In this document: piece by piece, positions 6,001-21,599 of the stretch
How the letters are laid out: each line of letters opens with the position of its first letter
Position numbering within the stretch: position 1 is the stretch's first letter
Source: Streptomyces sp. BA2
GTDB taxonomy: Bacteria; Actinomycetota; Actinomycetes; Streptomycetales; Streptomycetaceae
Length of the DNA: 64,000 bases
Direction of reading: 5' to 3'
Assembly: GCF_009769735.1 (NCBI RefSeq)
Contig: NZ_WSRO01000002.1
Span: 7,303,001 to 7,367,000, forward strand
The notes under the pieces: model-generated
The model's input: the letters and a program-made list of their open reading frames with translations, nothing else
Databases searched by the model: none
What the model was told of the DNA's origin: nothing
Translations under genes and position numbers: made by a program

Positions 6001-9000
6001 GGTCTTCGGCGGTGAACGCCTCGACACGGCCGAACTCCAGCCGTGGGTCGACCGGGTGGGCCTCGACAAGCCGATGCTCGTCAACCTGTACGGCCCGACC
6101 GAGATCACCGTCCACTGCACCTTCCACCGCGTGGACGCCGACGACTTCCGCCGTCCCGCGCGCAGCGTCCTCGGCCGGCACCTGACCGACCTGCGCATCC
6201 ACCTCCTCGACGGCCATGGACGGCTCGTCCCGGTCGGCGTCCCCGGCGAGATCCACGTCGGCGGCCCCGGCCTGGCCCGCGGCTACCTCGGCCGGCCCGC
6301 GCTGACCGCGGAACGCTTCGTGCCCGACCCGTTCGGGCCCGCGGGTGCGCGGCTCTACCGCACCGGCGACCTGGCCTGCCGACTGCCCAACGGACGACTG
6401 GAGTTCCTCGGCCGCATCGACGACCAGGTGAAGGTACGCGGCTACCGCATCGAGCTCGGCGAGATCGAGACCGCGCTGCGCGAGCACCCGGCCGTCGCCG
6501 ACACGGTGGTCGTCGCCCGCGAGGACCGGACGGGGGAGAAGTCCCTCGCGGCGTACGTCGTCCCGGCAGGACCGGGAGACGAAGCCGAATCCGGCCTCCT
6601 TCGGGAGCACCTGGCCGCCACCCTGCCCGACTACATGATCCCGGCCGCGTTCGTCACGCTGGCCGCCGTGCCGCTGATGGCCAACGGCAAGATCGACCAC
6701 CGGGCGCTGCCCGCGCCGGACCGCGACGCCTTCGACACCGGCAAGTACGTCGCCCCGCGCACCCCCGTCGAGGAACGTCTCGCCTCCGTCTGGGGCGAGG
6801 TCCTCGGCCTTGACCGGGTCAGTGTGGAGGACGGCTTCTTCGACCTGGGCGGCGACTCGCTGCGCGCCGTCCGCCTGGCCGGGGCGCTGCGCGCCGCCGG
6901 GTTCGACGTGTCCGTCCAGGACGTCTTCGCGCACCGCACCGTCGCCGGACTCGGCACGCACCTCGCGGGACAGGGCGGGGGCACCTCCCTGGTCACCACC
7001 GTGGCCCCGTTCGCCCTGATCGACGAGGCGGACCGGGCTCTGCTGCCCGCGGGCGTGGTGGACGCGTATCCGTTGTCACAGATCCAGACCGGCATGCTCG
7101 CCGAGACCATGGCGGGCAGCCCCGGCGGACGGGCCGTCTACCACAACCTCAACTCCTTCCGGATCCGCGACGACAAGCCGTTCTCGCTCGCCGCGCTCCA
7201 GGAGGCCGTCGACACGGTCGTGGCCCGCCACGACATCCTGCGCACGTCGATGCACCTGTCCGACTACTCCCGGCCGCTCCAGCTCGTCCACGCCACCACC
7301 GGCTTCGCGGTGACCCTGCGCGACCTGCGCGGCCTGGACACGGCGGAGCAGGAGCGGCGCAAGGCCGAGTACGTGGCCCAGGAGCACGCCGTCGTCTTCG
7401 ACCTGACGACCGCCCCCCTGATGAACGTCTCGGCGCTCCTGGAGAGCGACGACGCCTGGCGGCTCAACTTCACGTACCACCACGCCGTTTCGGAGGGCTG
7501 GAGCTACAACGCCTTGATGATGGAGATCGTCGAGTGCTACCGGCGACTGCGGGACGGCGGCGAGGTGCCGGAGTGCGGGGCGCCGGAGAGCGGGGCGCCG
7601 GAGTACGAGGCGCCGGAGTACGAGGCGCCTTCCATCCGGTACGCGGACTTCATCGCAGCCGAGCTGGCGTCGGTGGCGAGCGTGGAGGACCAGTCGTTCT
7701 GGCGCGGGGTCACGGACGGGCACGCCCCGCTCCGACTGCCCGAGACGTGGGGCGACCCGGAGGGCAGCAGCGAGGAGCGGCACGGTCTGCAGGTTCCGTT
7801 CGCGGATCTGGAGGGGCGCCTGCGGGAACTGGCGCGTACGGCAGGCACCTCGCTGAAGAGTGTGCTCCTTGCGGCGCATCTGAAGGTCCTTTCGGCGCTG
7901 ACGCCTGACGAGGCCTTCCACGCGGGGGTCGTCTACCACGGCCGCCTGGAGGCTCCGGGCGCGGACCGGGTGCTGGGCATGCACCTCAACACCCTTCCTT
8001 TCCCGGCCGTTCGGCCCTCCTCCGGCACCTGGCGGGAATGGGTGGAGCGGGTCTACGCCCAGGAGACGGAGATCTGGGCCCACCGCCGCTACCCCCTCCC
8101 CGCCGTCCAGCGGGACGCCGGAAACTCCCGGCACCTCATCTCGGTGCTCTTCGAGTACCTCGACTTCCACCACGTCGACACCGACACGGTCGACACCGCC
8201 CAGGGCCTGAACGACGGCATCAACGAGTTCGCGATGAACGTCATTCCGACCAAGGGCAACTTCAACCTCGGCTCCACGACGGATGTGATCAGCGGGGAGA
8301 ACCTGCGGCGGCTGGGGTCGATGTACCGGTCGGTGCTTGAGGCGATGGCGGCGGACCCGGAGGGGGACGCCGGGGTCGTGTGTCTGCCTGAGGGGGAGTT
8401 CGAGGGCGCCTCGGACTGCACCGAGTGGGGTGGCCGTTTGGGTGCGCTGGAGTTGTTCGCGGGGCAGGTGGCGGACCGGGCGGATGAGGCTGCGGTGGTC
8501 TGCGGTGAACAGCGGGTCACGTATGGGGAGTTGGAGGAGCGGTCGAGCCGGTTGGCTCGGCATCTGCGGGGTGCGGGTGTGGTGCCGGGCGCTGTGGTGG
8601 GTCTGTCACTCGGGCGGACACCGGATGTGCTGGTGAGCATGCTGGCGGTGTGGAAGCTGGGTGCGGCGTATCTGCCGATTGATCCTGCGCTGCCGGCTGA
8701 GCGTGCCGCGTATATGGCGGATGATGCCGGGGCTGTGCTGGTGGTCACGGACGAGTACCTTGCCGCGCACGGTGAGGGCATCGATCGTCTGCCTGCTGCC
8801 TTCGAGGCGGTCGCTGTGGATCCGGAGCAGGTGGCTTACGTGCTGTACACGTCCGGTTCGACCGGGCGGCCCAAGGGTGTGGTCATCAGTCACCGTGCGC
8901 TGCACAACCTGCTGGCCTCGCTGCGGGAGCGGCTGGGCTCGGGCTCCGGTGACGTGTGGTTGGCGTCGACGTCGATCTCGTTCGACATCTCGGGGCTTGA

Positions 9001-12000
9001 GCTGCACCTGCCGCTCATCACGGGCGGGCGCGTGGTCTTGGCGAGTGACACCGAGGCCAAGGACGCCACCGCGCTGCGGGCGCTCGCGGAAGCGCACGGT
9101 GTGACCCATGTGCAGGCGACGCCTTCGGGCTGGCGACTGCTGTTGGCGGCCGGGTTCGACGATCGCTCGGTGGTGGCGTTGACCGGTGGTGAACCCATCG
9201 ACGCCGAGCTGGCTCGGGAACTCGTCTCGCGCGTAGGCCGGTTGGTGAATGTGTACGGGCCGACGGAGACGACGATCTGGTCGTCGCTCTGGGATGTTCC
9301 CGATGTCCTGGACGGTGTCTCGATCGGTGGTCCGCTCGCCAACACCCAGTTGTACGTGCTGGATTCGCAGGGGCGGTCGGTGCCGTCGGGCGTCACGGGC
9401 GAGCTGTGCATCGCTGGTGACGGTCTTGCCCACGGCTACCACGCGCGGCCTGGACTGACCGCCGAGAAGTTCCTGCCCAACCCGTACGGCCCTTCCGGTT
9501 CCCGGTTGTACCGAACCGGTGACCTGGCCCGTCGTCTGGCCGATGGCACCTTTGAGTGCCTGGGGCGTATCGACAGTCAGGTGAAGGTGCGCGGCTATCG
9601 CATCGAGCTCGGTGAGATCGAGTCGCGCCTGCGGGAACTCCCGGGTATCGAGACCGCGGTGGTCGTCGCCCGCGAGGACCGGGCCGGGGACAAGACCCTG
9701 GTGGCGTACCTCGTCGGCGAGGCGGCCTCGGCCGACTTGCGCGGGCAACTCGGTAGCACGCTTCCCGAGTACATGGTCCCGGCGGCCTACGTGACCCTCG
9801 ACGCGATCCCGCTGACCAACAGCGGCAAGGTCGACCACCGCGCCCTGCCGGCCCCCGACCAGACCGCCTACGCGGGCGGGCGTCGTACCGCTCCGCGCAC
9901 GCCGGCCGAGGAGCGGCTGGCCGGAATCTGGGCGACCGTCCTGGAGCAGGACGAGGTGGGGGTGGAGGACAGCTTCTTCGACCTCGGCGGCGACTCCATC
10001 CGGGCCGTCCGTCTGGTCGGCGCCCTGCGCGCCGCCGGTTACGACGTCGACGTCCGCGCGGTCTTCGAGCACCGCACCATCGCCGCGCTCGCCGTCCACC
10101 TCACCGGCACCGAAGGGGCGTCCCTGCTCACCGCCGTGGAGCCCTTCGGGCTGCTCGGCGAGGAGGACCGTGCCGCGCTCCCGGCGGACGTCGTCGACGC
10201 GTACCCCCTGTCGCAGATCCAGACCGGCATGCTCGTCGAGATGCTGGCGGCGCAGGAGCAGGGCAGGTCGGCGTACCAGAACATCAACTCCTTCCGGATC
10301 CCCGACGATCAGCCGTTCTCGGTAGAGGCGTTCCGCGCTGCCGTCGACCACATCACGCACCGCCACGAGACGCTGCGCACCACGCTCCACCTCACCGGCT
10401 ACTCCCGGCCGCTCCAACTGGTGCACGACACGTCCGCTGTACCGGTGACGGTGCACGACCTGCGTGGCGAGAGCACACAGGGACAGCATGCGGCCCTGCG
10501 GGAGTTCGGTGCCGAGGAGCAGGCGACGGGCTTCGCGTTGGCCGACGCCCCCTCCTTGCGGATCGCGGTGCACCTGGAGTCGGACGATGCCTGGCGGATC
10601 ACGTTCACGTACGTCCACGCCATCGCGGACGGCTGGAGCTACCACACCCTCCTCATGGAGATCGTGGACTGCTACCGCAGCCTGCGGGACGGCGGTCAGG
10701 CCCCGGTGCACGAGGCGCCCTCCGTCCGGTACGCGGACTTCGTCGCCGCCGAACTCGCCTCGCTGGACGGCGATGAGGACCGCGCCTTCTGGCAGGACGT
10801 CGTCGAGCGCCACGCCCCCGCCTCCCTCCCGGAGAGCTGGGCGGACGCGTCCACGAACCTGCCGGGGACGCACGAGCAGTCGATCCCCTTCGGTGACCTG
10901 GCCGATGGCCTCCTCGCCCTGGCCCGGCAGTCCCATACCTCCCTGAAGACGGTCCTGTTGGCGGCGCATCTGAAGGTCCTGTCGTCCCTCACGGCGGACG
11001 AGGCCTTCCACACGGGTGTTGTCTTCCACGGCCGCCTGGAGGCTCCGGGTTCGGACCGGGTGCTGGGCATGCACCTCAACACCCTGCCGTTCCCGTCGAC
11101 TCGGCCCTCGGGTACTTGGCTGGAGCTGGTGGAGCGGGTCCACGCTCAGGAGACGGACATCTGGGCCCACCGCCGCTACCCGCTGCCCGCCATCCAGCGG
11201 GACACCGGCGACGGCCGGCGCCTGGTCTCCGTGCTCTTCGAGCACCTGGACTTCCACCAGGTCGATACGTCCGCCGTCGACGTGGCCGCCGGTCTGAACG
11301 ACGGCGCGAACGAGTTCGCCCTCAACGTGGCCGCCTCCCAGCGGCACATCGCGCTGATCGCCTCCGCCGAGACGATCGACGGGGCGAACCTGCGGCGCCT
11401 GGCGGCCCTGTACCGCCAGGTGCTGGAGGCGATGGCCGCCGACCCGGCGGGCACGGCGGGCGAGGCACACCTCCCGGCCGAGGAACTGGCCGCCGCGCTT
11501 TCGGCACCTGCCGCGACCGAGTGGGGCTGTGCCGGTGCGCTGGAGTTGTTCGCGGGGCAGGTGGCGGGCCGGGCCGACGAGGCCGCCGTGATCTGCGGTG
11601 AACAGCGCGTCAGCTACCGGGAGTTGGACGAGCGGTCGAGTCGGTTGGCTCGGCATCTGCGGGGTGCGGGTGTGGTGCCCGGCGGTGTGGTGGGGCTTGC
11701 TCTGCATCGGACGCCGGATGTGCTGGTGAGCATGCTGGCGGTGTGGAAGGTGGGGGCGGCGTATCTGCCGATCGACCCTGCGCTGCCCGCTGAGCGTGCC
11801 GCGTACATGGCCGAGGATGCCGGGGCTGTGCTGGTGGTCACGGACGACTACCTTGCCGCGCACCGTGCGGAGATCGATGGTCTGCCTGCTGCCTTTGAGG
11901 CGGTCTCGGTGGACCCGGAGCAGGTGGCCTACATCCTGTACACGTCTGGTTCGACCGGGCGGCCCAAGGGTGTGGTCATCAGCCACCGCGCCCTGCACAA

Positions 12001-15000
12001 CCTCCTGGCCTCGCTGCGGGATCACCTCGGCGCCGATCACACGGGTGTCTGGCTGGCGTCGACGTCGATCTCGTTCGACATCTCGGGTCTTGAGCTGCAT
12101 CTGCCTCTGATCACGGGCGGGCGGGTCGTTCTGGCCGGTGACGCCGAGGTCAAGGACGCCACCGCGCTGCGTGCGCTCGCGGAAGCACACGGTGTGACCC
12201 ACATGCAGGCGACGCCCTCGGGCTGGCGCCTGCTGCTGGCGGACGGGTTCGACGATCCCGTTGTCACCGCGCTGGTCGGCGGTGAAGCCATGAGCGCCGA
12301 GCTCGCTCAGCAGCTCGGCTCGCGCGTAGGCCGGTCGGTGAATGTGTACGGGCCGACGGAGACCACCATCTGGTCGTCCTCCTGGGACGTGCCGCAGGCC
12401 CTCGACGGCTGCGTATCCATCGGTGACCCGCTCGCCAACACCCAGTTGTACGTGCTCGACGCGCAGGGCAGTCCGGTCCCGGTCGGCGTCACGGGCGAGC
12501 TGTGCATCGCCGGTGACGGTCTTGCCCACGGCTACCATGCCCGGCCTGGACTGACCGCCGAGAAGTTCCTGCCCAACCCGTATGGGCCGTCTGGTTCGCG
12601 GTTGTATCGCACGGGTGACCTGGCCCGTCGTCTGTCCGATGGCACCTTCGAGTGCCTGGGGCGTATCGACAGTCAGGTGAAGGTTCGCGGCTATCGCATC
12701 GAGCTCGGTGAGATCGAGTCGCGGCTGCGGGAGCACCCTGCCGTGACGGACGCCGTCGTCGTGGCGCGTGCGGACGATGCCGGGGACAAGAGCCTGGTGG
12801 CGTACGTCGTCGGCACGGCGGAAGCCGCCCCGCTGCGGGAGCACCTGGGCGAGGCGCTGCCGGAGTACATGGTCCCGGCGGCCTACGTGACCCTCGACGC
12901 GATCCCGCTCACCAACAGCGGCAAGATCGACCACCGCGCCCTGCCCGCCCCCGACCGGACCACGTACGCATCCGGCGGCCCTCGTACCGCCCCGCGCACG
13001 CCCGTCGAGAAGCGGCTCGCCGTCATCTGGAGCGAGCTCCTCGGGGTGGACGGCGTCGCTGTGGAGGACGGCTTCTTCGACCTGGGCGGTGACTCGTTGC
13101 GGGCCGTGCGGATGTTGGCGGAGTGCCGCGAGGCCGGGCTGCCGGTGGCCATGTGGATGATCCTCCAGGCGCGCAGCCTCGGCGACCTCGCGTCGCTGAC
13201 GGCGGCGGCCGAGGCGGACGACGCCCGGTTCCCGGAGGACGGGATGCCGCTGCTGCCGGGGCACATCAAGTGGCTCGACGGCTACGCGGCCGGGGCTCGC
13301 ACGGTACGGGTGCCGTGGGAAGGGCGGGCGGACGCCGACGTACTGCGGAAGGCGCTGGCGGCCGTGGTCCGACACCACCAGGCGTTGCGGCTGGTGCTCG
13401 ACACCGCCGGTTCGCCGGCCGTCGCGCGGCTCGCCGAGGTCGACGACGACGCCCTGCTGCGGGTCGCCGACTTCGCCGCCGTACCGGCGGAGCGGCGTGC
13501 GGAGGCGGTCCGCGCGGCTGTCGCCGAGAGCGCGGCGGACGTCGACGCGCGCAAGGGCGCCGCTCTTCGCGCCACGCTGGTCCGCTTCGACGACATCCCG
13601 GACGACGAACTGTGGCTGTCGGGGCATGAACTTGCCCTGGACCACAGCTCCTGGTCCGTGGTCCTCGCCGACCTCGTGACGGCCGTACGGCAGGTCGCCC
13701 GCGGCCGGGTGGTCCAGCTGCCCGAGGTGCCCGTACCGCTGCACGGCTGGGCCCGGCAGCTCGCCGGTCTTGCCGGGAGCGAGGAGATGCTCGACCAGGC
13801 CGAGGCCTGGCTTGGGCTGCCCGAGGCCCCGCCGCTTCCCGTCGACCACAAGGGCGACCACGAGGTCGGCCACGCGGTCCAGGGCGTGACGGTCGACGGC
13901 AACACCGTCACCGTGGCGCTCCCGGCGGAAGAGACCGCCGAGCTGCTGGCCGCTGACCGGCCCGAGCGGCTGCTGCTGTCCACGCTCGGGCGGGTGCTCG
14001 CGCGCTGGGCCGACGCGGACCGCATCGGCGTCGAGGTCACCGTCGACCCGCGCCGGGAGGCGTCCGACGAGGCCGCCGCCCTGGCCCGGACCGTCGGCCC
14101 GCTGACGGACCGCGTCCCGGTGTCCCTGCGCCTGCCGCGCGACCGTGGCCCCGCGGCCGATCTGACGTCGGTGACCCGGCAGTTGAGGGCACTGCCCGCA
14201 CCCCGCCACGGCTACGGCCTGCTGCGCTGGCTGGCTCCTGATCCGGACGTCGCGGAGGAGCTGGCGGCTCTGCCTGCACCGCAGGTCCGGTTCGGGTTCA
14301 CGCCCGCCGATGACGTCCGCGGGGACGCGGCCCTTCCGTTCGTACCGGAGCATGCGGTCATCCAGGACACGGAGCTGCCCCACGGGCTGCTCCTGGACGT
14401 CGACGCCCGCGTCCACGGCGACCGGCTGTACCTGCGCTGGACCCACCGCACAGCCATCCACGAGGAGTCGACCGTCCGGAAGCTGGCAGAGGAACAGATG
14501 GCCGAGCTCGGCGCGCTGCTGCGCGACGGAGCGCGAGGCCCGCGGCGAGGTGCCGCCCGCGCGGTCCCGGATGTCCGGGACGCCGTCGAGGGGGTGATGG
14601 CGCGGCACGGCATCCCGGGCGCGAGCCTGGCCCTCGTCAGGGACGGCGAGGTCGCGGAGGTGCACGCCTTCGGGGTCCAGCGGGCGAACCACGCCGTACC
14701 GGTTACGGACGACACGGTGTTCGCTGCCGGGTCGATCAGCAAGCACCTCACGGCCTTCACCGTGCTGCGGCTGGTGTCCGGTGGGCTGCTCGACCTCGAC
14801 CGCGACATCAACGACTACCTGACCTCCTGGCGGGTCCCCGACGGCCTTCCGGTGACCGCCCGGCTGCTGCTCGGCAACCAGGCCGGCTTCGCCGGGCACC
14901 CCGACCTGACGGAGGGCTACCGCCGGCACGACCCGGTGCCGACGGTGCTCGACGTGCTGAACGGACGGGCCCCGGCCCGCACTCCGGCCGCGCACCGGCA

Positions 15001-15700
15001 GGACGAGCCCGGCGCGGTGTTCCATCTGACGCCCTTGCACTACTCGGTGCTCCAGCAGGCGATGAGCGACCTGACCAGCGAGGAGTTTCCCGACCTGGTC
15101 AGGCGGCTGGTGTTCGACCCGCTGGGGATGACCGGCAGCGGCTTCGAGCCGCGCTTCCCCGACCTGTCGGGACGGGAGTTCGCCCACGGCCACGACGCCG
15201 ACGGGACACCGGTGCCCGACGGGTACTACGTCAACCCGGAGGCCGCTGCCGGTGGCTTGTGGAGCACCGCGGCCGACCTCGCCGCGCTGGCCGTCCAGGT
15301 CCGGCGCTGCCGCCTTGGGCTGCCGGGCGCCCTCGTCGAGCAGGAGCTCGTACGGGAGATGCTGACGCCGAGGTCGGGCCGGATGTACGGCTGGAGCACC
15401 ATCGTCGACGACTCCTCGGGCGACCTGGAGTTCGGCCACGGAGGGCAGGCGTACGGCTACCAGGCCATGACCGGGCTTCGGCTGCACTCGGGAGTCGGCG
15501 CGGTCCTGCTGACGAACGCGGTGGCAGGACGGGAGCTGGTCCGGCACGTGATCGCCACGACCTGGAGCGAGCGGACCCGCACGGCGGGCCTGTGGCAGCG
15601 CGCGGTCGACGAGGCGGTACAGCGGGAGCAGCGGGAGCAGCGGGAGCAGCGGGAGCAGCGGGAGCACGGCGCGGACGGTTCGGGTGTGCACGGTGTCTGA
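1..15700 (+). CDS. Non-ribosomal peptide synthetase, 5'-truncated by the window: (A)-T-[C-A-T]x4-E-like-PBP-type hydrolase
   Basis: The frame is open from base 2, and the first codons already encode the A8 core of an adenylation domain (GRIDKQVKIRGYRIELG), so the true start lies upstream; internal starts such as GTG 122 are not gene starts. Domain order: end of an A domain, a carrier domain, four C-A-T modules, an epimerase-like domain and a serine hydrolase with SISK and HGG motifs. Carrier serines sit in GGDSIRAVR or GGDSLRAVR. My reading of the specificity pockets, by alignment to GrsA motifs, gives one unclear, one Thr-like and two Gly modules. It should act in the cytoplasm, adding at least five residues and releasing the product through the C-terminal domain. 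There is no conventional alpha/beta-hydrolase thioesterase domain and no MbtH gene in the window. The MFS gene overlaps the 3' end, so the two are probably co-transcribed. The NRPS identity is certain; the product is not known. Confidence 0.97.
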   Translation, partial: ADGSLESLGRIDKQVKIRGYRIELGEIENRLREHPAIKDAVVVARESQAGEKSLVAYAVGGADAASLREHLAPVLPDYMVPAAFVAIDAIPLTTNGKLDHRALPAPDQTAYTGGRHIAPRTPAEERLAAVWGEILDVAEVGVEDSFFEVGGDSIRAVRLVGALRAAGYDIDVREIFEHRTIAALAARLSGQGGGASLIRAVAPFALVSAEDRAALPGDVVDAYPLSQIQTGMLVELLRAGELHTYHNLTSFRIPDEHAFSAEAFRAAVDTVVARHDILRTSMHLSGYSQPLQLVHASAVLPVTVHDWRGLDAAEQQRLGRAYADGDRAAGFDLDSAPLLRIGVQLESDSAWRLTLSHCHAATEGWSYHSLLMEILDCYRELREGREPAAFVAPAVRYADFVAAELDSLASDEDRAFWQDVVRGHAPLALPDTWADEDGDAGDHHRVYVPFADLEEGLGRLAARARTSLKSVLLAAHLKVLSTVTTEDAFHTGVVYHGRLEAPDAERVLGMHLNTLPFPATRPSGSWLELVEGVYAQETDIWAHRRYPLPAIQRDLGEAQRLISVLFEHQNFHQVDRDAVDMDAGLNSSPNEFALSVVSGNGRFNLGTSTDVLGRDALRRIGDLYRRVLEAMAADPDGDATVVPLAQDDLDRLLVDWNTTNTTDITAEQCVHQAFAAQAARTPDHTAVTCGDRRLTYAELDARANGIAHRLRDFGAGPDTVVAVLLDRDLDLMPTLLGVLKSGAAYVPLDPHNPDDRLVHILTDARAGVLVSASGLAERVTDDFEGELLLVDMEDASAWPATAPEGLNSPDDLAYVIYTSGSTGTPKGVGVSHANVLRLFRATREQFAFGDTDVVTQAHSYAFDVSVWEMWSALLHGGRLVVVPPDVVRSPEEFLDLLVAEQVTVLLQTPTAFRALSAPAGDGDPRFDRLALRLVGFGGEKLETAELRPWVDRMGLDEPVLVNLYGPTETTMHACYHLIGADDLAHPRRSDIGHPLADLSAHLLDPHGHLVPVGVPGELYVGGPAVARGYLGRPALTAERFVPDPFGPTGARLYRTGDLARRLPDGSLDFLGRIDDQVKVRGYRIELGEVESRLREHPAVRDAVVTLTEPNPGHKVLTGYLVPAGPAPTAAELRDRLASVLPEYMVPAAFVPIDTVPLTTNGKLDHRALPLPDSDAFATAHRLAPRTPVEERLAAVWGEILNVAEVGVEDSFFEVGGDSIRAVRLVGALRAAGYDIDVREIFEHRTIAALAVVAEGRSAAEVTAAVEPFALISAEDRLALPVDVVDAYPLSQIQTGMVVEMLAARSEGRDVYHNINSFRIPDERPLDADALQQAVDVVVSRHGILRTSVHLDGFSQPLQVVHARVEPTVEVVDLRGWDAAAAGEEYAARERARGFDLTTAPLMRFCAHIESEDAWRLTVSHCHAVTEGWTLNTFLMELLDVYGQLTGGGGEVTQYVAPSVRYADYIAAELASLASVDDRAFWQNVVGDHTALRLPAAWADDDGTPEDFHWAQAPYADLEDGLRQLAARARTSLKSVLLAAHLKVLSTVTTEDAFHTGVVYHGRLEAPDAERVLGMHLNTLPFPATRPSGSWLELVEGVYAQETDIWAHRRYPLPAIQRDSGDSQRLITTLFDHQNFHQVDRDTVDVEGGLGDGTNEFELSVVASGGRITLGAGTHVFGRDALRRLADQYRRVLEAMAADPHGDAGDPCLPEDELTRLLVDWNTTVEQPVHHRVPDVFATHVATAPDAVAVTCGDRHLTYAELDKRANRLAHHLIGLGAGPGTVVGVSLERDIDLVPTLLGVLKSGAAYLPLDPTNPVDRLAYVLDDAGAPLLVTRTVHVATFDGIHEGPVVLLDGETDRAALAARPDTAPAVAGTPDDLMYVIYTSGSTGRPKGVGLSHANVLRMFTAITEEMAFSRDDVCTQAHSYAFDFSVWEMWGALLHGGRVVIVPTEVGRSPEEFLDLLVEQRVTVVCRIPSAFRQLAALAAEGDERIDRLALRAVVFGGERLDTAELQPWVDRVGLDKPMLVNLYGPTEITVHCTFHRVDADDFRRPARSVLGRHLTDLRIHLLDGHGRLVPVGVPGEIHVGGPGLARGYLGRPALTAERFVPDPFGPAGARLYRTGDLACRLPNGRLEFLGRIDDQVKVRGYRIELGEIETALREHPAVADTVVVAREDRTGEKSLAAYVVPAGPGDEAESGLLREHLAATLPDYMIPAAFVTLAAVPLMANGKIDHRALPAPDRDAFDTGKYVAPRTPVEERLASVWGEVLGLDRVSVEDGFFDLGGDSLRAVRLAGALRAAGFDVSVQDVFAHRTVAGLGTHLAGQGGGTSLVTTVAPFALIDEADRALLPAGVVDAYPLSQIQTGMLAETMAGSPGGRAVYHNLNSFRIRDDKPFSLAALQEAVDTVVARHDILRTSMHLSDYSRPLQLVHATTGFAVTLRDLRGLDTAEQERRKAEYVAQEHAVVFDLTTAPLMNVSALLESDDAWRLNFTYHHAVSEGWSYNALMMEIVECYRRLRDGGEVPECGAPESGAPEYEAPEYEAPSIRYADFIAAELASVASVEDQSFWRGVTDGHAPLRLPETWGDPEGSSEERHGLQVPFADLEGRLRELARTAGTSLKSVLLAAHLKVLSALTPDEAFHAGVVYHGRLEAPGADRVLGMHLNTLPFPAVRPSSGTWREWVERVYAQETEIWAHRRYPLPAVQRDAGNSRHLISVLFEYLDFHHVDTDTVDTAQGLNDGINEFAMNVIPTKGNFNLGSTTDVISGENLRRLGSMYRSVLEAMAADPEGDAGVVCLPEGEFEGASDCTEWGGRLGALELFAGQVADRADEAAVVCGEQRVTYGELEERSSRLARHLRGAGVVPGAVVGLSLGRTPDVLVSMLAVWKLGAAYLPIDPALPAERAAYMADDAGAVLVVTDEYLAAHGEGIDRLPAAFEAVAVDPEQVAYVLYTSGSTGRPKGVVISHRALHNLLASLRERLGSGSGDVWLASTSISFDISGLELHLPLITGGRVVLASDTEAKDATALRALAEAHGVTHVQATPSGWRLLLAAGFDDRSVVALTGGEPIDAELARELVSRVGRLVNVYGPTETTIWSSLWDVPDVLDGVSIGGPLANTQLYVLDSQGRSVPSGVTGELCIAGDGLAHGYHARPGLTAEKFLPNPYGPSGSRLYRTGDLARRLADGTFECLGRIDSQVKVRGYRIELGEIESRLRELPGIETAVVVAREDRAGDKTLVAYLVGEAASADLRGQLGSTLPEYMVPAAYVTLDAIPLTNSGKVDHRALPAPDQTAYAGGRRTAPRTPAEERLAGIWATVLEQDEVGVEDSFFDLGGDSIRAVRLVGALRAAGYDVDVRAVFEHRTIAALAVHLTGTEGASLLTAVEPFGLLGEEDRAALPADVVDAYPLSQIQTGMLVEMLAAQEQGRSAYQNINSFRIPDDQPFSVEAFRAAVDHITHRHETLRTTLHLTGYSRPLQLVHDTSAVPVTVHDLRGESTQGQHAALREFGAEEQATGFALADAPSLRIAVHLESDDAWRITFTYVHAIADGWSYHTLLMEIVDCYRSLRDGGQAPVHEAPSVRYADFVAAELASLDGDEDRAFWQDVVERHAPASLPESWADASTNLPGTHEQSIPFGDLADGLLALARQSHTSLKTVLLAAHLKVLSSLTADEAFHTGVVFHGRLEAPGSDRVLGMHLNTLPFPSTRPSGTWLELVERVHAQETDIWAHRRYPLPAIQRDTGDGRRLVSVLFEHLDFHQVDTSAVDVAAGLNDGANEFALNVAASQRHIALIASAETIDGANLRRLAALYRQVLEAMAADPAGTAGEAHLPAEELAAALSAPAATEWGCAGALELFAGQVAGRADEAAVICGEQRVSYRELDERSSRLARHLRGAGVVPGGVVGLALHRTPDVLVSMLAVWKVGAAYLPIDPALPAERAAYMAEDAGAVLVVTDDYLAAHRAEIDGLPAAFEAVSVDPEQVAYILYTSGSTGRPKGVVISHRALHNLLASLRDHLGADHTGVWLASTSISFDISGLELHLPLITGGRVVLAGDAEVKDATALRALAEAHGVTHMQATPSGWRLLLADGFDDPVVTALVGGEAMSAELAQQLGSRVGRSVNVYGPTETTIWSSSWDVPQALDGCVSIGDPLANTQLYVLDAQGSPVPVGVTGELCIAGDGLAHGYHARPGLTAEKFLPNPYGPSGSRLYRTGDLARRLSDGTFECLGRIDSQVKVRGYRIELGEIESRLREHPAVTDAVVVARADDAGDKSLVAYVVGTAEAAPLREHLGEALPEYMVPAAYVTLDAIPLTNSGKIDHRALPAPDRTTYASGGPRTAPRTPVEKRLAVIWSELLGVDGVAVEDGFFDLGGDSLRAVRMLAECREAGLPVAMWMILQARSLGDLASLTAAAEADDARFPEDGMPLLPGHIKWLDGYAAGARTVRVPWEGRADADVLRKALAAVVRHHQALRLVLDTAGSPAVARLAEVDDDALLRVADFAAVPAERRAEAVRAAVAESAADVDARKGAALRATLVRFDDIPDDELWLSGHELALDHSSWSVVLADLVTAVRQVARGRVVQLPEVPVPLHGWARQLAGLAGSEEMLDQAEAWLGLPEAPPLPVDHKGDHEVGHAVQGVTVDGNTVTVALPAEETAELLAADRPERLLLSTLGRVLARWADADRIGVEVTVDPRREASDEAAALARTVGPLTDRVPVSLRLPRDRGPAADLTSVTRQLRALPAPRHGYGLLRWLAPDPDVAEELAALPAPQVRFGFTPADDVRGDAALPFVPEHAVIQDTELPHGLLLDVDARVHGDRLYLRWTHRTAIHEESTVRKLAEEQMAELGALLRDGARGPRRGAARAVPDVRDAVEGVMARHGIPGASLALVRDGEVAEVHAFGVQRANHAVPVTDDTVFAAGSISKHLTAFTVLRLVSGGLLDLDRDINDYLTSWRVPDGLPVTARLLLGNQAGFAGHPDLTEGYRRHDPVPTVLDVLNGRAPARTPAAHRQDEPGAVFHLTPLHYSVLQQAMSDLTSEEFPDLVRRLVFDPLGMTGSGFEPRFPDLSGREFAHGHDADGTPVPDGYYVNPEAAAGGLWSTAADLAALAVQVRRCRLGLPGALVEQELVREMLTPRSGRMYGWSTIVDDSSGDLEFGHGGQAYGYQAMTGLRLHSGVGAVLLTNAVAGRELVRHVIATTWSERTRTAGLWQRAVDEAVQREQREQREQREQREHGADGSGVHGV
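2..560 (+). other. NRPS module 0 (partial): A-domain C-terminus and carrier domain
   Basis: The A8 motif lies at about 35-95, the A10 motif LTTNGKLDHRALP at about 274-312, and the carrier motif FFEVGGDSIRAVR at about 435-475. The pocket-forming part of this A domain lies outside the window, so its amino acid cannot be read. The carrier DNA is nearly identical to that of module 1 (391-557 against 3586-3752). Confidence 0.93.
640..3760 (+). other. NRPS module 1 (C-A-T), substrate unclear
   Basis: The condensation domain starts with DAYPLSQIQTGML. Its HHxxxDG motif reads CHAATEG (bases 1073-1093): the catalytic second His is kept, the first His is Cys and Asp is Glu. The A domain (about 2000-3510) has YVIYTSGSTGTPKG and YGPTETT cores. 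My pocket reading is D-V-W-L-G-G-L-M-H-K. It resembles the Thr code DFWNIGMVHK at only about half the positions, so no substrate is assigned. The carrier motif is GGDSIRAVR. Confidence 0.85.
1388..1664 (+). repeat. 277-bp direct repeat, copy 1 (condensation domain, module 1)
   Basis: By eye this segment differs from 4580-4856 at only two of 277 bases, including third codon positions, while the flanking condensation-domain sequence is much more diverged. The offset between copies is 3192 bases. Confidence 0.93.
3830..6960 (+). other. NRPS module 2 (C-A-T), threonine-like code
   Basis: The condensation motif reads CHAVTEG (4262-4282). The A domain (about 5200-6705) contains FDFSVWEMWGALLHGG, and the pocket reads D-F-W-C-V-G-L-V-H-K. 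That matches the established Thr code DFWNIGMVHK at seven of ten positions, so Thr or a close analogue is likely. The carrier motif is FFDLGGDSLRAVR. A 277-base stretch of the condensation domain is almost identical in DNA to module 1. Confidence 0.85.
4580..4856 (+). repeat. 277-bp direct repeat, copy 2 (condensation domain, module 2)
   Basis: Partner of 1388-1664. The two differences I see are a G/C change in the codon after GAT and a G/C change in GTG TAC against GTC TAC. This is consistent with recent recombination or gene conversion between modules. Confidence 0.93.
7045..10100 (+). other. NRPS module 3 (C-A-T), glycine code
   Basis: The condensation motif reads HHAVSEG (7478-7498), the only one of the four with both histidines. 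A 60-base tandem repeat (7568-7627) lengthens a linker in this domain only. The A domain (about 8440-9850) has FDISGLELHLPL, and the pocket reads D-I-L-Q-L-G-V-I-W-K, one residue away from the established Gly code DILQLGLIWK. The carrier motif is FFDLGGDSIRAVR. Confidence 0.9.
7568..7627 (+). repeat. Four tandem 15-bp units inside the module 3 condensation domain
   Basis: The units are CCGGAGTGCGGGGCG, CCGGAGAGCGGGGCG and two of CCGGAGTACGAGGCG. They encode a run of P-E-x-x-A pentapeptides just before SIRYADF. The other three condensation domains have no such run at this place, so it is a local expansion. Confidence 0.95.
10180..13200 (+). other. NRPS module 4 (C-A-T), glycine code
   Basis: The condensation motif reads VHAIADG, keeping the second His and the Asp. 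The A domain (about 11530-12955) is a close copy of the module 3 A domain and gives the same pocket, D-I-L-Q-L-G-V-I-W-K, predicted glycine. The carrier motif is FFDLGGDSLRAVR. This is the last elongation module before the terminal E-like and hydrolase domains. Confidence 0.9.
13245..14530 (+). other. Degenerate epimerization-like domain at the NRPS C-terminus
   Basis: The layout matches an epimerization domain: an N-terminal LLPGHIKW block, a RTVGPLTDRVPV block (E4-like), a GYGLLRWL block (E5-like) and an ALPAPQVRFGF block (E7-like). The catalytic HHxxxDG motif reads HELALDH (13625-13645): the second, catalytic His is Glu and Gly is His. I infer no epimerase activity. This fits with the preceding module loading achiral glycine, where epimerization would have no meaning. 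Confidence 0.75.
14580..15580 (+). other. C-terminal PBP/beta-lactamase-type hydrolase domain (candidate cyclase/thioesterase)
   Basis: This is a PF00144-type fold. The serine and lysine of SISK lie at 14732-14743, a Tyr in LHYSV at 15041, and the third motif HGG starts at 15437. Penicillin-binding-protein-type thioesterases of this family (SurE of the surugamide pathway is the model) cyclise peptides whose C-terminal residue is D or glycine. Those I know are separate proteins; here the domain is fused to the synthetase. Peptide release or macrocyclisation is inferred from position and motifs. A hydrolytic prodrug-peptidase role is less likely because no membrane segments are visible. Confidence 0.8.
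15620..15664 (+). repeat. Five perfect 9-bp units (CAGCGGGAG) at the NRPS 3' end
   Basis: The units encode five QRE tripeptides close to the C-terminus, after the hydrolase fold has ended. A charged helical tail is expected. The array length is likely to vary between strains. Confidence 0.97.
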
Positions 15701-17003
15701 GCGCCTCGAAGTGTCCGAGACCGTCCCGCCCTCCGCGGATGCCGCGGATGCCGCGGACACCGCGACATCGCCTCCCGTTCCCCTCCGCCGCAACGCCGAC
15801 TTCATCCGGCTGTGGGTGAGCGCCGGAGTCTCACGGCTCGGTACGTCACTGACCATGGCGGCGTTCCCGCTGCTGGTCCTGTGGCACACCGGATCGGCCG
15901 CCGCGACGGGTCTGGTGACCTTCGCGGCGGCGCTGCCCGGCTTCCTCGTCCAGCTGCCCTCCGGGGCGCTGGTCGACCGCCTCGACCGCCGGAAGCTGAT
16001 GATCGGCTGCGACGTGGTGGGCGTGCTGGTCGTCAGCAGTGTCGCCGCCACCGAGGTGGCCGGTCGGTTCTGGCTGCCGCACCTGATGGCCGCCGCGTTC
16101 CTCCTGGCGTCGGTGACGATCGTCTATCAGTTGTCCGAACGGGCCACCGTCCGGCATGTGGTGAGCCCCGGACAACTGCCGGCCGCGCTCTCCCAGAACG
16201 AGGCGCGCGGCGCGGCCATCGGCCTGCTCGGACAGCCCGGCGGCAGCGCGCTGTTCACGCTCGCCCGCTGGCTCCCCTTCGCCGCCAACGCGCTGGCCGC
16301 CCTGGTCGCCCTCGTCCTGCTGCTCTTCATCAGACGGCGCTTCACGGCCGAGCAGGCGCCCGGCCCCAGGGAGCCGCTGCGCGCCGAAGTCACCGCGGGC
16401 GTCCGCTGGCTGTGGCAACGGCGGTTCCTGCGCACGATGGTGGGGATCTTCGCCGGCAGCAACCTGGTCTTCCAGGTGCTGCTCCTGTCGGTGATGGTGA
16501 TCGTCCACGACGGCGGCCACTCGCCCGCGATCGTCGGCCTGGTCGTCGGCGCGGGCGGCGTCGGCGGTGTCCTGGGCGCCCTGTGCGCGTCCTGGTGGCT
16601 GCGCAGGGCGAGCCTGTACCGGACGGTGGTGACCGGTTTCGCCGTCTGGACCGTGCTCGTGCCGCTGTCGGTCCTCGCGCGCAGCCCCCTCGTCCTCATC
16701 GGCACCCTGGCCGGTATCTCCTTCGTGGCGAGCCTCTTCAACGTCGCAGGCGGCATCTACCAGATGCGCGTCACCCCCGACGAACTACAGGGCCGGGTCA
16801 ACGGCGCCACCGGCGCCCTGTCCTCCGCCGCGAGCGCCATCGGCGCCCTCGGCGGCGGCTGGCTCCTCGACCGCGCCGGTCTCACCGCCACGGGCGTCGG
16901 CGTCGGTGTCATCGTCCTGCTCCTTACCGTGACGGCCGCCGTGAGCCCCGTCGCGCGCTCGGAGGGCCGCGAGCGCCAAACCGCCGACACACCCGTCACA
17001 TAG
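15684..17003 (+). CDS. MFS exporter (DHA3/EntS-like), probable product export
   Basis: Integral membrane protein of 439 residues with about 12 hydrophobic segments. The N-terminal signature LWVSAGVSRLGTSLTMAAFP and the loop GALVDRLDRRKL after the second segment are typical of DHA3-type drug and siderophore exporters. The GTG at 15684 gives 439 residues, and a second GTG at 15693 is equally possible; both overlap the NRPS stop (15698-15700), which suggests translational coupling. Export of the finished peptide, and self-resistance, is inferred from position and family. The next gene starts 180 bases downstream behind its own palindrome. Confidence 0.88.
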   Translation: MCTVSERLEVSETVPPSADAADAADTATSPPVPLRRNADFIRLWVSAGVSRLGTSLTMAAFPLLVLWHTGSAAATGLVTFAAALPGFLVQLPSGALVDRLDRRKLMIGCDVVGVLVVSSVAATEVAGRFWLPHLMAAAFLLASVTIVYQLSERATVRHVVSPGQLPAALSQNEARGAAIGLLGQPGGSALFTLARWLPFAANALAALVALVLLLFIRRRFTAEQAPGPREPLRAEVTAGVRWLWQRRFLRTMVGIFAGSNLVFQVLLLSVMVIVHDGGHSPAIVGLVVGAGGVGGVLGALCASWWLRRASLYRTVVTGFAVWTVLVPLSVLARSPLVLIGTLAGISFVASLFNVAGGIYQMRVTPDELQGRVNGATGALSSAASAIGALGGGWLLDRAGLTATGVGVGVIVLLLTVTAAVSPVARSEGRERQTADTPVT

Positions 17004-17182: not shown

Positions 17183-17986
17183 ATGACCGAGTCAGCGGAC
17201 AGGTGGTTCCGCCGCTACCGAGCGACCACCGCACCCCGGCTGCGCCTGGTGTGCCTCCCGCACGCCGGCGGTTCGCCGACCGCCTACCGGACGTGGGCCC
17301 GCCGCCTGCCCGAGGACATCGAGCTCCTTGCCACCTGCTACCCCGGCCGTCAGGACCGGTTCGCCGAGCCCTTCGCCGACTCGATCGGAGAACTCGCCGA
17401 CGGGGTCGCGCAGGCGCTCGAGCCGCTCCTCGGCACCCCGCTCGCCCTGTTCGGGCACAGCATGGGCGCGGTCGTCGCCCATGAGGTGACCCGGCTCCTT
17501 GACGCCCGCCACGGGGTGCGACCGCTGAGGCTCTTCGTGTCCGGAGCCGACGCCCCGCACCGTCGCGAGCGCACCGACCTGCACAGCCGGGACGACGCCG
17601 AATTCCTCGCCGAGATCCGGCAGTTGGGCTCGTCATCCCTTGCGGAGATCGACGACCCCGCCCTCCTGGAGATGGTGCTGCCCGTCATCAAGGCCGACTA
17701 CCGCCTTGTGGAGACGTACCGCCCGGACCCGGCCGCCAAGACCCGCTGCCCGGTGGTGGCCTACGTCGGCGACCAGGACGAGGACTGCGCGATCGAGGAC
17801 GTCCGCGCCTGGTCGCAGACCACCACGGCCGGCTTCGAGATGCGGGTCTTCCCCGGCGACCACTTCTACCTGGAGCAGCAGGAACCCGAACTGCTCGCCC
17901 ACCTCACCGGCCACCTCCGGGCCGACCTGCGCCTGCGCGCGGCCGTCGGCCGGACGGCAGGGTCCGCCGCGGAGCACGGCGCATGA
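17183..17986 (+). CDS. Type II (editing) thioesterase
   Basis: A 267-residue alpha/beta hydrolase of the GrsT/RifR family. Visible motifs are LPHAGGSPTAYRTWA (oxyanion region), the nucleophile elbow GHSMG, YVGDQDEDC (catalytic acid region) and PGDHFYLEQQ (catalytic His). Such enzymes remove wrong or stalled acyl groups from carrier domains. The ATG at 17183 is preferred because GGAAGG ends 7 bases before it; GTG 17180 is in frame directly before. The last bases overlap the acyl-AMP ligase start (ATGA), so the genes are coupled. Confidence 0.93.
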   Translation: MTESADRWFRRYRATTAPRLRLVCLPHAGGSPTAYRTWARRLPEDIELLATCYPGRQDRFAEPFADSIGELADGVAQALEPLLGTPLALFGHSMGAVVAHEVTRLLDARHGVRPLRLFVSGADAPHRRERTDLHSRDDAEFLAEIRQLGSSSLAEIDDPALLEMVLPVIKADYRLVETYRPDPAAKTRCPVVAYVGDQDEDCAIEDVRAWSQTTTAGFEMRVFPGDHFYLEQQEPELLAHLTGHLRADLRLRAAVGRTAGSAAEHGA

Positions 17987-19842
17987 CCACCGACCGCATC
18001 ACAGAAAGGCCGTCCGCGCACATGAGCGACGACCACGACGCCCTCGTGAGCCCCGACCACCTCATGAGCCCCGAACACCTCGTCGGCCGACTCGAGACAC
18101 ACGCACGGGACATTCCGGACCGGCCGGCCGTGGTCTTCGTCCGGCACCCCGACGGCCGGCCCGTCGAGGAGACCCTGACGTACGGCGCACTCGACCGCGA
18201 GGCCCGCAAGGTCGCCGCCTGGCTGCGCGGTCGGTGCATGGCCGGCGACCGGGTGATGCTCCTGTACGGCACAGGCCTGGAGTTCGTGAAGGCGCTCATC
18301 GGCTGCATGTACGCCGGTGTGGTCGCCGTACCGTCCCCGATGCCGGGGCAGCAGCGCGGCCACGACACCCGCTCCGCCGGGATCGTGCGGGACGCCGACG
18401 TCCGGCTCGTGCTCACCACGTCCGGTGAACTTTCCTCCATCACCGCCTTCCTGGCGGAGGCCGACGCCGAGGACGTGCCCTGCGTCGCCACGGACACCCT
18501 CGACCTGGCCGAGGCGCCCGGCTGGCAGGTACCGGCGCTGGACGCCGCCACCCTCGTCATCCTGCAGTACACGTCCGGCTCGACCAGCGACCCCAAGGGC
18601 GTGCGGGTCACCCACGGCTCGCTCGCCCACAACGTCGGCGAGATGGCCCACGCCTTCGGCCTCGACTCCGGGTCCCGGATGGGCAGTTGGCTGCCGCAGC
18701 ACCACGACATGGGCCTCATGGGCAAGCTGTTGCTGCCGCTGCACCTGGGCGCGACCACGGTCCTGATGACGCCCATGGACTTCCTGCGCCGCCCGCACCT
18801 GTGGCTGCGGCTCCTCGACACGTACCGCATCACCACCACCGTCGCCCCGAACTTCGCCTACGACCTCTGCGTACGCCGCGTCACCGACGAGCAGCTCGCC
18901 GGCGTGGACCTGTCCCGGGTGCGCAACGCGGGCAACGGCTCCGAACCCGTCAGCGCCCGCACCCTGCTGAACTTCGCCGAACGCTTCGCATCGGCGGGCT
19001 TCCGTCTCGACGCCTTCAACCCCTGCTACGGCATGGCCGAGACGACCCTCCTCGTCACCGGTACGGGCCCGGGCCGTGCCCCGGTCCTCGCGACCGTCGA
19101 CGCCGATGCCCTGGCCCGCAAGGAGCTCCGCGCCCTGCCCGCCGACGCCGAGGGTGCCCGTCTTGTCAGCAGCGGCCGCGTCAACGACCTGACCGTGCGG
19201 ATCGTCGACCCCGACACCGGGCGGACGCTGCCCGACGGCCGGGTCGGTGAGATCTGGGTACGCGGCGACAGCGTCGCCGACGGCTACTGGCGCAACCCCG
19301 AGGCCACCGAGCGGATCTTCCGCGCCCGCACCGCCGAGGGCGAAGGACCTTACCTGCGCACCGGTGACACCGGAGCCCTGTACGACGGCGAACTCTTCGT
19401 CACCGGCCGGGTCAAGGAGATGCTCGTCGTCAACGGCCGCAACCTCTACCCGCACGACCTGGAGCGCGAGGTCCAGGACCTGCACGAGGCGTTCCAGGGC
19501 CTCGCCGGCAGCGTCTGCTCGGTCCCCGCCGACGGTGAACGGGTCGTCGTGATGCAGGAGATGCGCCCGCGCGGGTCCTCCGCCGCGGACCTGCCGGAGC
19601 TGGCCCGCACCGTGCGCGGCGCGCTGGCCGAGCGCGTCGGCATCCGCGTCGGCGGCGTGGTCTTCCTGCGCCCCGGCCAGGTCCGCCGCACCACCAGCGG
19701 CAAGATCCGGCGCTCCCACATGCGGCAGCTGTTCACGGACGGCTCACTGCCGGGCCTTTACGAAGACCTCGACGCCCCGCTGCTGCGTGAGTTCCGGGGA
19801 TCGGCGGCACCGGCCGCCCAGGCTCCTGGACGGTCCGCGTGA
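17983..19842 (+). CDS. Fatty acyl-AMP ligase (FAAL)
   Basis: A 619-residue adenylate-forming enzyme. It has QYTSGSTSDPKGV (P-loop), SWLPQHHDMGLMGK, FNPCYGMAETTL and VNGRNLYPHDLE blocks, all typical of FAAL proteins rather than CoA ligases. FAALs activate a free fatty acid as acyl-AMP and pass it to an acyl carrier protein instead of CoA. The free ACP at 26740 is the obvious partner. In lipopeptide loci this step supplies the N-terminal acyl chain. The start overlaps the thioesterase stop. An internal ATG at 18022 is possible but removes only 13 residues. Confidence 0.92.
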   Translation: MTTDRITERPSAHMSDDHDALVSPDHLMSPEHLVGRLETHARDIPDRPAVVFVRHPDGRPVEETLTYGALDREARKVAAWLRGRCMAGDRVMLLYGTGLEFVKALIGCMYAGVVAVPSPMPGQQRGHDTRSAGIVRDADVRLVLTTSGELSSITAFLAEADAEDVPCVATDTLDLAEAPGWQVPALDAATLVILQYTSGSTSDPKGVRVTHGSLAHNVGEMAHAFGLDSGSRMGSWLPQHHDMGLMGKLLLPLHLGATTVLMTPMDFLRRPHLWLRLLDTYRITTTVAPNFAYDLCVRRVTDEQLAGVDLSRVRNAGNGSEPVSARTLLNFAERFASAGFRLDAFNPCYGMAETTLLVTGTGPGRAPVLATVDADALARKELRALPADAEGARLVSSGRVNDLTVRIVDPDTGRTLPDGRVGEIWVRGDSVADGYWRNPEATERIFRARTAEGEGPYLRTGDTGALYDGELFVTGRVKEMLVVNGRNLYPHDLEREVQDLHEAFQGLAGSVCSVPADGERVVVMQEMRPRGSSAADLPELARTVRGALAERVGIRVGGVVFLRPGQVRRTTSGKIRRSHMRQLFTDGSLPGLYEDLDAPLLREFRGSAAPAAQAPGRSA

Positions 19843-21599
19843 GACACGCCCCGTATCTCGCCGCCGCCGACCTCGACCGGCGCCTCGGTGACCCCGCCGA
19901 CGAGGGCCGGCTGTTCTCGTACGCCCGCTGCGGGGCGCTCGACGACCGCGAGGAGTTCCCGCTGGAGATCTGCCGGGAACTGGACCTGCTGGGCCTGCAC
20001 CGGCAGTACGTCCCGTACCGCCACGGCGGCGAACTGCGCTCCTACGAGCAGGTGTTGCAGCTGATGCGGGCGGTCGCCCGGCGCGATCTGACCGTCGCCG
20101 TCGCCCACGGCAAGACCTTCCTCGGCGCCGTCTCCGTCTGGGTCGGCGGCGATGCCCGGCAGATCCGGGAGACCGCGGCGCGGGTGGCCGACGGGGCCGT
20201 GGTGTCCTGGGGTCTTACCGAGCGGGACCACGGCAGCGACCTGCTCGCCGGTGAGGTGACCGCGCGCCGGGACGGCGGCCACTACCGGCTCGACGGCGAG
20301 AAGTGGCTGATCAACAACGCCAACCGGGGCCAGCTGATCTGCGTCCTCGCCCGCACCAAGGACACCGAAGGGCCGCGCGGCTTCAGCCTGCTGATGGTCG
20401 ACAAACAGCGCCTCGACCGGAGTGCGTACCGGCCGCTGCCGCAGGTGAGGCTGCACGGCATCCGGGGCGCCGACATCAGCGGGATCGCTTTCACCGACGC
20501 CAAGATCCCCGGGGCATCGCTGGTCGGCGCGGAGGGCGAGGGCAGTGAAATCGTCCTCAAGAGCCTGCAACTGACCCGGACCCTGTGCGCCGCCCTGTCC
20601 CTGGGCGCCGCCGACCACGCCCTCGCGCTGGCCACCGGCTACGCCCTCGACCGGCACGCCTACGGCGACCGGCTCGCCGACCTGCCACAGACGCGCAGGC
20701 TGCTGGCCCAGTCGTACGCCGACGTACTGCTCGCCGAGGCGACGACCCTCGTCGCCGGCCGCGCCCTGCACACCCTCACCGGCGAACTGGCCACCGTCTC
20801 CGCCGTCACCAAGTACTTCGTGCCGAGCCTGGTCGACCGGGTCGTCGCCCGCCTTTCCACCGTGCTCGGGGCGCGCTCCCTGCTGGTGGGGGACACCTAC
20901 GAACACGGCCGGTTCCAGAAGCTGCAACGCGATCACAGGATCGTCGGCATCTTCGACGGCAACACCGTGGTCAACCTGCACGCCCTGATCAACCTGTTCC
21001 CGCTGCTCGCCCGGCAGTGGCGGCGCGGCACCGTCGACGAGACGGGACTCGCGGCCGCCACCACGCTCGGCGCCGACCTGCCCGACTTCGACCGCGACGC
21101 TCTGTCCCTGCTGCCGCGCACCGGCTGCAGCGTCGTCCAGGCACTGGCGCCGGGTGTACGGGAGCTGTCCGCGCTCGCAGCGCGGGGCGAGCTGCCCGCC
21201 GGGGTGGCGCGCCGCGCCGAGGGTGTCCTTGCCGCCGCCGAAGGCCTCGCCGCCGAACTGGACGGCTACCGGCCGACCGCCGTCGACGTACCGGCATCAG
21301 CGTTCACCCTCGCCGAGCGCTACGCCTGGTGCTTCGCCGCATCGGCGGCCGTCCACCTGTGGCTGCGCAACCGGCACGCCGTCGCCGAAGCGGGCGCGGA
21401 CGCCGGGCACACGGCCGAGCTGTGGCAGGACGGCCGCTGGCTTGAGGCCGCGCTCGCCCGGGTCCTCGACCACCTCGGCACCTCCTGGCCCGACGCCACC
21501 GACGACGTCCTGGAGCGCCTTGTGCCGACCCTGATCGCCCAGCACGAGTCCGGGCAGCTGCCCTCCCTCCTCCACCACCCGCTGAAGGTGAGCGCGTGA
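19839..21599 (+). CDS. Acyl-CoA/acyl-ACP dehydrogenase, subunit 1
   Basis: A 586-residue FAD enzyme longer than the usual 380-400: an acyl-CoA dehydrogenase core plus a C-terminal extension of about 180 residues. VVSWGLTERDHGSDLLAG is the flavin/substrate signature. Where ordinary family members carry the catalytic Glu (YEGT), this one reads IFDGNT, so Asp takes its place. Likely role: alpha,beta-dehydrogenation of the acyl chain activated by the FAAL. The GTG start overlaps the FAAL stop by 4 bases, and the stop overlaps the next dehydrogenase by 4 bases. Confidence 0.9.
   Translation: MRHAPYLAAADLDRRLGDPADEGRLFSYARCGALDDREEFPLEICRELDLLGLHRQYVPYRHGGELRSYEQVLQLMRAVARRDLTVAVAHGKTFLGAVSVWVGGDARQIRETAARVADGAVVSWGLTERDHGSDLLAGEVTARRDGGHYRLDGEKWLINNANRGQLICVLARTKDTEGPRGFSLLMVDKQRLDRSAYRPLPQVRLHGIRGADISGIAFTDAKIPGASLVGAEGEGSEIVLKSLQLTRTLCAALSLGAADHALALATGYALDRHAYGDRLADLPQTRRLLAQSYADVLLAEATTLVAGRALHTLTGELATVSAVTKYFVPSLVDRVVARLSTVLGARSLLVGDTYEHGRFQKLQRDHRIVGIFDGNTVVNLHALINLFPLLARQWRRGTVDETGLAAATTLGADLPDFDRDALSLLPRTGCSVVQALAPGVRELSALAARGELPAGVARRAEGVLAAAEGLAAELDGYRPTAVDVPASAFTLAERYAWCFAASAAVHLWLRNRHAVAEAGADAGHTAELWQDGRWLEAALARVLDHLGTSWPDATDDVLERLVPTLIAQHESGQLPSLLHHPLKVSA

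Follow-up and report, generated by a model that had tools for sequence, protein, structure and literature searches.

A penicillin-binding-protein-fold domain fused in cis behind a dead epimerase-like domain as the probable release domain of a Streptomyces nonribosomal peptide synthetase

The window, a stretch of 64,000 nucleotides from the genome of Streptomyces sp. BA2 (contig NZ_WSRO01000002.1, positions 7,303,001 to 7,367,000), opens inside a large gene for a nonribosomal peptide synthetase (NRPS). Joined to the upstream DNA of the same genome, the frame comprises 10,525 codons and nine modules and ends in the order C9-A9-T9-E*-PF00144, where E* stands for an epimerase-like domain and PF00144 for a domain of the penicillin-binding-protein (PBP) fold, followed by 47 residues and the stop codon (Table 1). 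A profile search of the C-terminus (positions 11000-15697) at E 0.001 detected no PF00975 thioesterase, in agreement with an earlier sequence-only reading of this DNA, according to which the synthetase lacks an ordinary thioesterase at its end. From the NRPS gene to the gene for a stand-alone condensation domain all genes are transcribed in the same direction, with overlaps of four bases at three junctions. Condensation domains 2, 4, 5, 6 and 7 of the NRPS frame, the last two of which are encoded within the window, contain Cys in place of the first His of HHxxxDG (CHAVTEG type) and retain the second, while C3 and C9 read VHAIADG. A further NRPS gene is located upstream (genome C2:7282828-7287630) and encodes, as judged by eye, an A-like domain, T, C, A (code DLTKLAEIG) and T. 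The YTSGSTG motif is missing from its first A-like domain, which may be inactive.

Table 1. Features encoded in the C-terminal half of the NRPS gene and directly downstream (positions in the window)
Feature	Position	Strand	Remark
NRPS C-terminal half, tail of A5 to end	2..15700	+	frame starts upstream of window
A8	8495..9796	+	code DILQLGVIW (Gly)
C9 condensation domain	10163..11428	+	
A9	11588..12892	+	code DILQLGVIW (Gly)
T9 carrier domain	12947..13216	+	GGDSL at 13085
E*, epimerase-like	13229..14533	+	HELALDH 13625-13645, catalytic His replaced by Glu; RTVGPL
PF00144 PBP-fold (S12) domain, probable release domain	14582..15556	+	SISK 14732-14743, HGG 15437-15445
Motif-2 Leu and Pro	15026-15028 (Leu), 15032-15034 (Pro)	+	inside PF00144 domain
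C-terminal tail	15557..15697	+	47 residues; SurE-type sequences 110-131 residues
MFS exporter	15684..17003	+	overlaps NRPS end
Type II thioesterase (PF00975)	17183..17986	+	
Acyl-AMP ligase (PF00501 + PF23024)	17983..19842	+	presumably FAAL-like
Acyl-CoA dehydrogenase	19839..21599	+	
Second acyl-CoA dehydrogenase	21596..23329	+	
Enoyl-CoA hydratase/isomerase	23391..24164	+	
Stand-alone condensation domain	24241..25755	+	
Alpha/beta hydrolase	25700-26743		

The last two adenylation domains, A8 and A9, share the code D-I-L-Q-L-G-V-I-W, and the A10-motif Lys is visible in the translation. The accessible parts of two papers give DILQLGVI as a prediction for Gly that agrees with nocamycin (PMC5466765) and DILQLGMIWK as a Gly code (PMC12283262). 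Both domains are predicted by this code (DILQLGxIW) to activate glycine, just as the sequence-only reading had proposed. The codes of A4 to A7 resemble the Thr codes DFWNIGMVHK and DFWSVGMVHK (PMC12283262, accessible part).

E* is recognized by the Condensation profile with 75.9 bits and reaches 34.4 bits with TIGR01720, for which the cut-off is 74.2. A joint alignment of E and C domains shows that, at the second His of HHxxxDG, the window has Glu, the relatives L011, L012, L013 and L015 have Asp and L017 has Thr. RTVGPL is common to these six sequences. The loss of the catalytic His, noted before from the letters alone, is thus confirmed, and a dead E domain seems to be ancestral to this clade, which has members in Streptomyces, Solihabitans and Lentzea. 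Seven other fused proteins (L044, L058, L074, L095, L147, L097 and L098, the last without a T call) have the same T-E-PBP order but, unlike the window, keep the second E His and also the Tyr of the PBP domain (7/7). They read RTVGWF in six of the seven cases, the Gly of HHxxxDG is changed there too, and they reside on other branches of the tree. E* is conserved, albeit less so than the PBP domain: all dN/dS values lie below 1, with 0.28-0.34 for E* and 0.15-0.25 for PBP among L011, L012 and L013, 0.41-0.53 and 0.30-0.44 in pairs with the window and, higher, 0.62-0.76 and 0.49-0.57 in pairs with L015. In L027 and L040, E remnants of 14 bits lie right before PBP, as if eroded from an older T-E-PBP order. 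E-like stretches also precede a Lys-type PBP in the fragments P0002 and P0007 and an Arg-type PBP in P0012; these three are unplaced in the tree and their HH motifs fall outside the fragments.

The final domain matches PF00144 with 161.8 bits (E 3e-47) and possesses the SxxK and HxG motifs of this fold. Whereas the SISK and HGG motifs named in the sequence-only reading are in place, the Tyr is not. Motif 2 reads FHLTPLHYS, with Leu at the position of the YxN Tyr and Pro at that of the Asn, and the Tyr of HYSVLQQ sits five residues past the catalytic position. In none of the 57 sequences of the clade in which the window domain resides (see below) is the motif-2 Tyr present; Lys takes its place in 46 of them, Val, Asn and Ser in two each and Gln, Met, Arg, Glu and Leu in one each, Leu being the residue of the window. 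The six members with a dead E show Leu, Lys, Lys, Gln, Met and Val. SxxK is complete throughout (57/57) and the HxG His occurs in 56. The Tyr is kept in all 17 SurE-type sequences, 16 of which also have the Asn, in all 22 other sequences of the tree and in the seven fused proteins with an intact E His. Its loss is a single change that dates to the root of the clade, so that its link with the loss of a live E counts only once.

Relatives were collected by a protein search, which scored the 7,998 candidates with the most words in common and gave at least 604 matches, the best 120 of which were examined, and by a genome scan, from which the best 80 of 200 relatives were taken and 44 of these 80 examined by motif, 40 of them serving for the comparison of gene neighborhoods. 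Of the best 16 proteins, 10 carry PF00550 ahead of PF00144. Compared with solved structures, the window domain alone matches 2qmi (78 bits) and IS11 (64) best and reaches 38 bits with SurE and 26 with Ulm16, while a profile from 27 sequences (A2) scores 121 bits with SurE 6ksu and 87 bits with Ulm16 8fek. A tree of 103 sequences calculated by a quick method (63 relatives after removal of 11 near-duplicates, the window, 17 SurE-type and 22 other sequences) places the SurE-type proteins on one side of a branch (support 100) and 57 sequences from actinomycetes, including the window, in another group (97), the groups being named after the first tree was seen and the motif columns being kept in the alignment. 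In a tree of 50 sequences calculated by a careful method, 22 of the 57 group together at 99/97 and the SurE-type proteins at 100/99, and a 100/100 branch separates the latter from the window clade. AU tests on the 50 sequences rejected a grouping of the Tyr-less proteins with the BifB-like protein L156 (p 2.9e-45) or with the SurE type (p 0.00045) and of all fused proteins including L156 (p 1e-07), but not of the Tyr-less proteins with the fused proteins that retain the E His (p 0.171). The kinship with SurE that the sequence-only reading had suggested is therefore abandoned: the trees place the window domain outside the SurE lineage, although a broader test on 103 sequences did not reject a single group of all SurE-type and all fused proteins (p 0.288).

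The nearest unfused neighbors in the 50-sequence tree are uncharacterized S12 serine hydrolases (P0019 and P0021 with PF11954, L043 and others). The grouping with esterases, which the sequence-only reading had named as a result that would refute its proposal, is half borne out by these S12 serine hydrolases. Membership of the class C beta-lactamases is rejected, as the curated family model has a cut-off of 415 bits and the domain reaches 50.4. A GLW motif is common to the group of the window domain and 16 of the 22 other sequences. Unlike the window domain, these 22 all retain the YxN Tyr, and no NRPS domain was found in frame in the 14 of them that are loci.

Within the 57-member clade, the PBP domain follows a T domain in frame in 53 cases, 48 with T-PBP and five with T-E*-PBP order; three further sequences are cut by contig ends. 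Each of the 56 frames besides that of the window has its stop codon within the DNA examined. The tails behind PBP measure 5-68 residues in 55 of the 57 proteins, as compared to 110-131 in the 16 SurE-type proteins measured, so that no tail of lipocalin size was found in the clade except for L018 and L021, which carry an unrelated fusion. In these two Plantactinospora proteins, the domain fused behind PBP resembles, by eye, ornithine carbamoyltransferase. In L014 (Kitasatospora sp. MAA19), a PBP gene of the window clade (L014:10001-11029) is not accompanied by any NRPS domain in the forward frames of the 10 kb upstream; short matches to the acyl-CoA dehydrogenase and the alcohol dehydrogenase of the window lie nearby, and the locus may be either a decayed cluster or one with a trans-acting copy. 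Two Kribbella proteins, L035 and L038, show C and T in their final module but no A domain ahead of PBP.

The sequence-only reading had explained the dead E domain and the terminal Gly together: a cyclase that needs a D-residue or Gly would be served by achiral glycine without an epimerase. We do not retain this explanation. In the dead-E clade, the terminal code specifies Gly in the window, L012 and L013, whereas L015 (DFWGVALVF) and L017 (DLPKIAEIG) combine a dead E with codes for other residues; L011 is cut by a contig end and no A domain was found in L014. Beyond the window, the code of the last A domain is readable in 48 of 56 clade members, which leaves 46 terminal codes when L035 and L038 are set aside. 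DLPKVAEVG accounts for 19 and DILQLGVIW for three of these, the others are scattered, and 43 of the 46 are non-Gly. DLPKVAEVG may be Asn-like or a code for diaminopropionate, a guess that draws on DLTKxGEVGK-type readings. Since most clade members without E are non-Gly by code, the D-or-Gly rule of SurE appears not transferable by sequence. The alignment column of SurE G235, which we placed on the assumption that the SurE Ser is Ser63, holds Gly in the window domain and in the other Gly-coded sequences (3/3) and Ala in 18 of 19 sequences coded DLPKVAEVG, and was rejected as a predictor of Gly use. According to the accessible part of PMC11735501, wild-type SurE does not accept a C-terminal Gly, larger residues in place of G235 allow it, and WolJ does accept it.

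SurE, Ulm16, PenA, FlkO and WolJ share the PF00144 fold, SxxK and HxG with the window domain but differ from it, as far as the accessible literature goes, in being stand-alone proteins composed of PBP and lipocalin parts that act on a C-terminal D-residue (WolJ also on Gly). The stand-alone feature is not strict. In BifB, the biffamycin A synthetase, a Gly module is succeeded by a SurE domain embedded in the protein, termed 'a unique observation', and deletion of this domain abolishes biffamycin in vivo (PMC13285481, May 2026, accessible part). In both BifB and the window's NRPS, a PBP-fold domain is fused in cis downstream of the T domain in a final Gly module, and the latter would therefore not be the first natural cis-acting PBP-type release system. 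Among our loci, L156 (G057) appears to resemble the bif synthetase by domain order and Gly code; its first domain is called E at 96 bits by small HMMs and is read here as C. The terminal code of L156 is identical to that of the window, but the protein groups with SurE, has a tail of 110 residues and YSD and HDG motifs, and lacks an E domain between the last T and PBP. What is new at the window locus is the independent lineage, the missing lipocalin-size tail, the altered motif 2, the retained dead E and the probable lipopeptide context. In the open-access literature, to which our search was largely confined, we found no earlier description of this fused lineage and nothing on its catalytic residues, codes or product.

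The genes behind the synthetase include an acyl-AMP ligase that we take to be FAAL-like, two acyl-CoA dehydrogenases, an enoyl-CoA hydratase/isomerase and a stand-alone C domain with a probable function in lipo-initiation. In the window's gene row, though not necessarily in the clade at large, this fatty-acyl cassette makes it likely that the N-terminus of the peptide is blocked. In the flanks of 40 loci (L014 included though unfused; many flanks are short), homologs of the MFS exporter occur 30 times, of the type II thioesterase 24 times, of the acyl-AMP ligase three times and of the stand-alone C domain once; the dead-E relative L015 adjoins homologs of all four and of an acyl-CoA dehydrogenase. 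Head-to-tail macrolactamization as in SurE and BifB, the reaction implied by the sequence-only reading, could be argued from the terminal Gly, which L156, with the same code, and BifB A4 (PMC13285481, accessible part) also have, and from the ability of WolJ to accept C-terminal Gly (PMC11735501, accessible part). With the N-terminus probably blocked, such closure becomes unlikely, and the different lineage, the absence of both a lipocalin-size tail and the Tyr, and the Gly at the G235 position, where larger residues permit Gly in SurE (PMC11735501, accessible part), speak against it as well, so that we regard it as improbable.

The last domain of the synthetase is probably a PBP-fold release domain acting in cis, as the sequence-only reading had put it, and follows a Gly module and the dead E*. 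For the reaction it would catalyze, we see roughly even chances for release by side-chain cyclization in a lineage distinct from that of SurE. A peptidyl chain of ten residues by module count, with Gly-Gly at its end, would move from T9 to the Ser of SISK, with the Lys of SISK and the His of HGG completing a reduced active site, and an internal nucleophile would then attack the acyl-enzyme. As the neighboring genes provide for fatty-acid loading and the N-terminal amine is probably blocked, this nucleophile would most likely be a side-chain hydroxyl or amine, conceivably from one of the Thr-like residues of A4 to A7, giving a lariat lipopeptide. E* would not epimerize, and its part between T9 and the release domain may be that of a spacer or a scaffold for docking.

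Hydrolysis is a common activity among S12 enzymes, and it is conceivable that the domain instead hydrolyzes the T9 thioester to set free a linear lipopeptide acid. The uncharacterized serine hydrolases that are its nearest unfused neighbors and the lack of a tail of lipocalin size that could keep water away from the acyl-enzyme fit such a role, whereas the disappearance of the YxN Tyr throughout the clade hints at a chemistry other than plain hydrolysis; we consider this outcome rather unlikely. Without both Tyr and Asn of YxN, catalysis could even be weak or lost, and the variation of the Tyr site in the dead-E clade and the unfused PBP of L014 would suit a dead or bystander domain. The chain would then be released by the type II thioesterase or the alpha/beta hydrolase, whose presence in the gene row also counts against side-chain cyclization by the PBP domain. 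Type II thioesterases, however, are general repair enzymes and present near 24 of the 40 loci, and the retention of SxxK and the HxG His in all six members of the dead-E clade along with dN/dS below 1 speaks against a dead domain; we consider this scenario very improbable.

Side-chain cyclization of N-acylated peptides is not among the reactions of PBP-type thioesterases described in the accessible part of PMC11735501, where rings are closed exclusively head-to-tail and the C-terminal residue is a D-residue or Gly. Tentatively, the clade may be seen as a second, independently recruited, actinomycete-wide family of cis-acting PBP domains that lost the Tyr, mostly in favor of Lys, and that would release N-acylated peptides ending in L-residues or Gly by side-chain cyclization without epimerization, a possibility to which we assign somewhat less than even chances. 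There is demand for PBP-type cyclases as biocatalysts that make peptide rings, and the accessible ring chemistry would be widened by a separate fused lineage that has an altered catalytic center, no lipocalin and varied terminal residues. Our observations suggest that PBP-fold release in cis has at least two separate origins and is not uncommon. Among 392 genomes of the window's genus, scored with five candidates per genome so that the counts are lower bounds, the profile at E 1e-60 matches at least 27 (31 places, 28 in frames of more than 900 codons; the window's own place and fused proteins with an E His are included) and SurE at 1e-40 at least 72. Five of 76 SurE-type places lie in frames of more than 1,000 codons, and L156 alone is fused to an NRPS.
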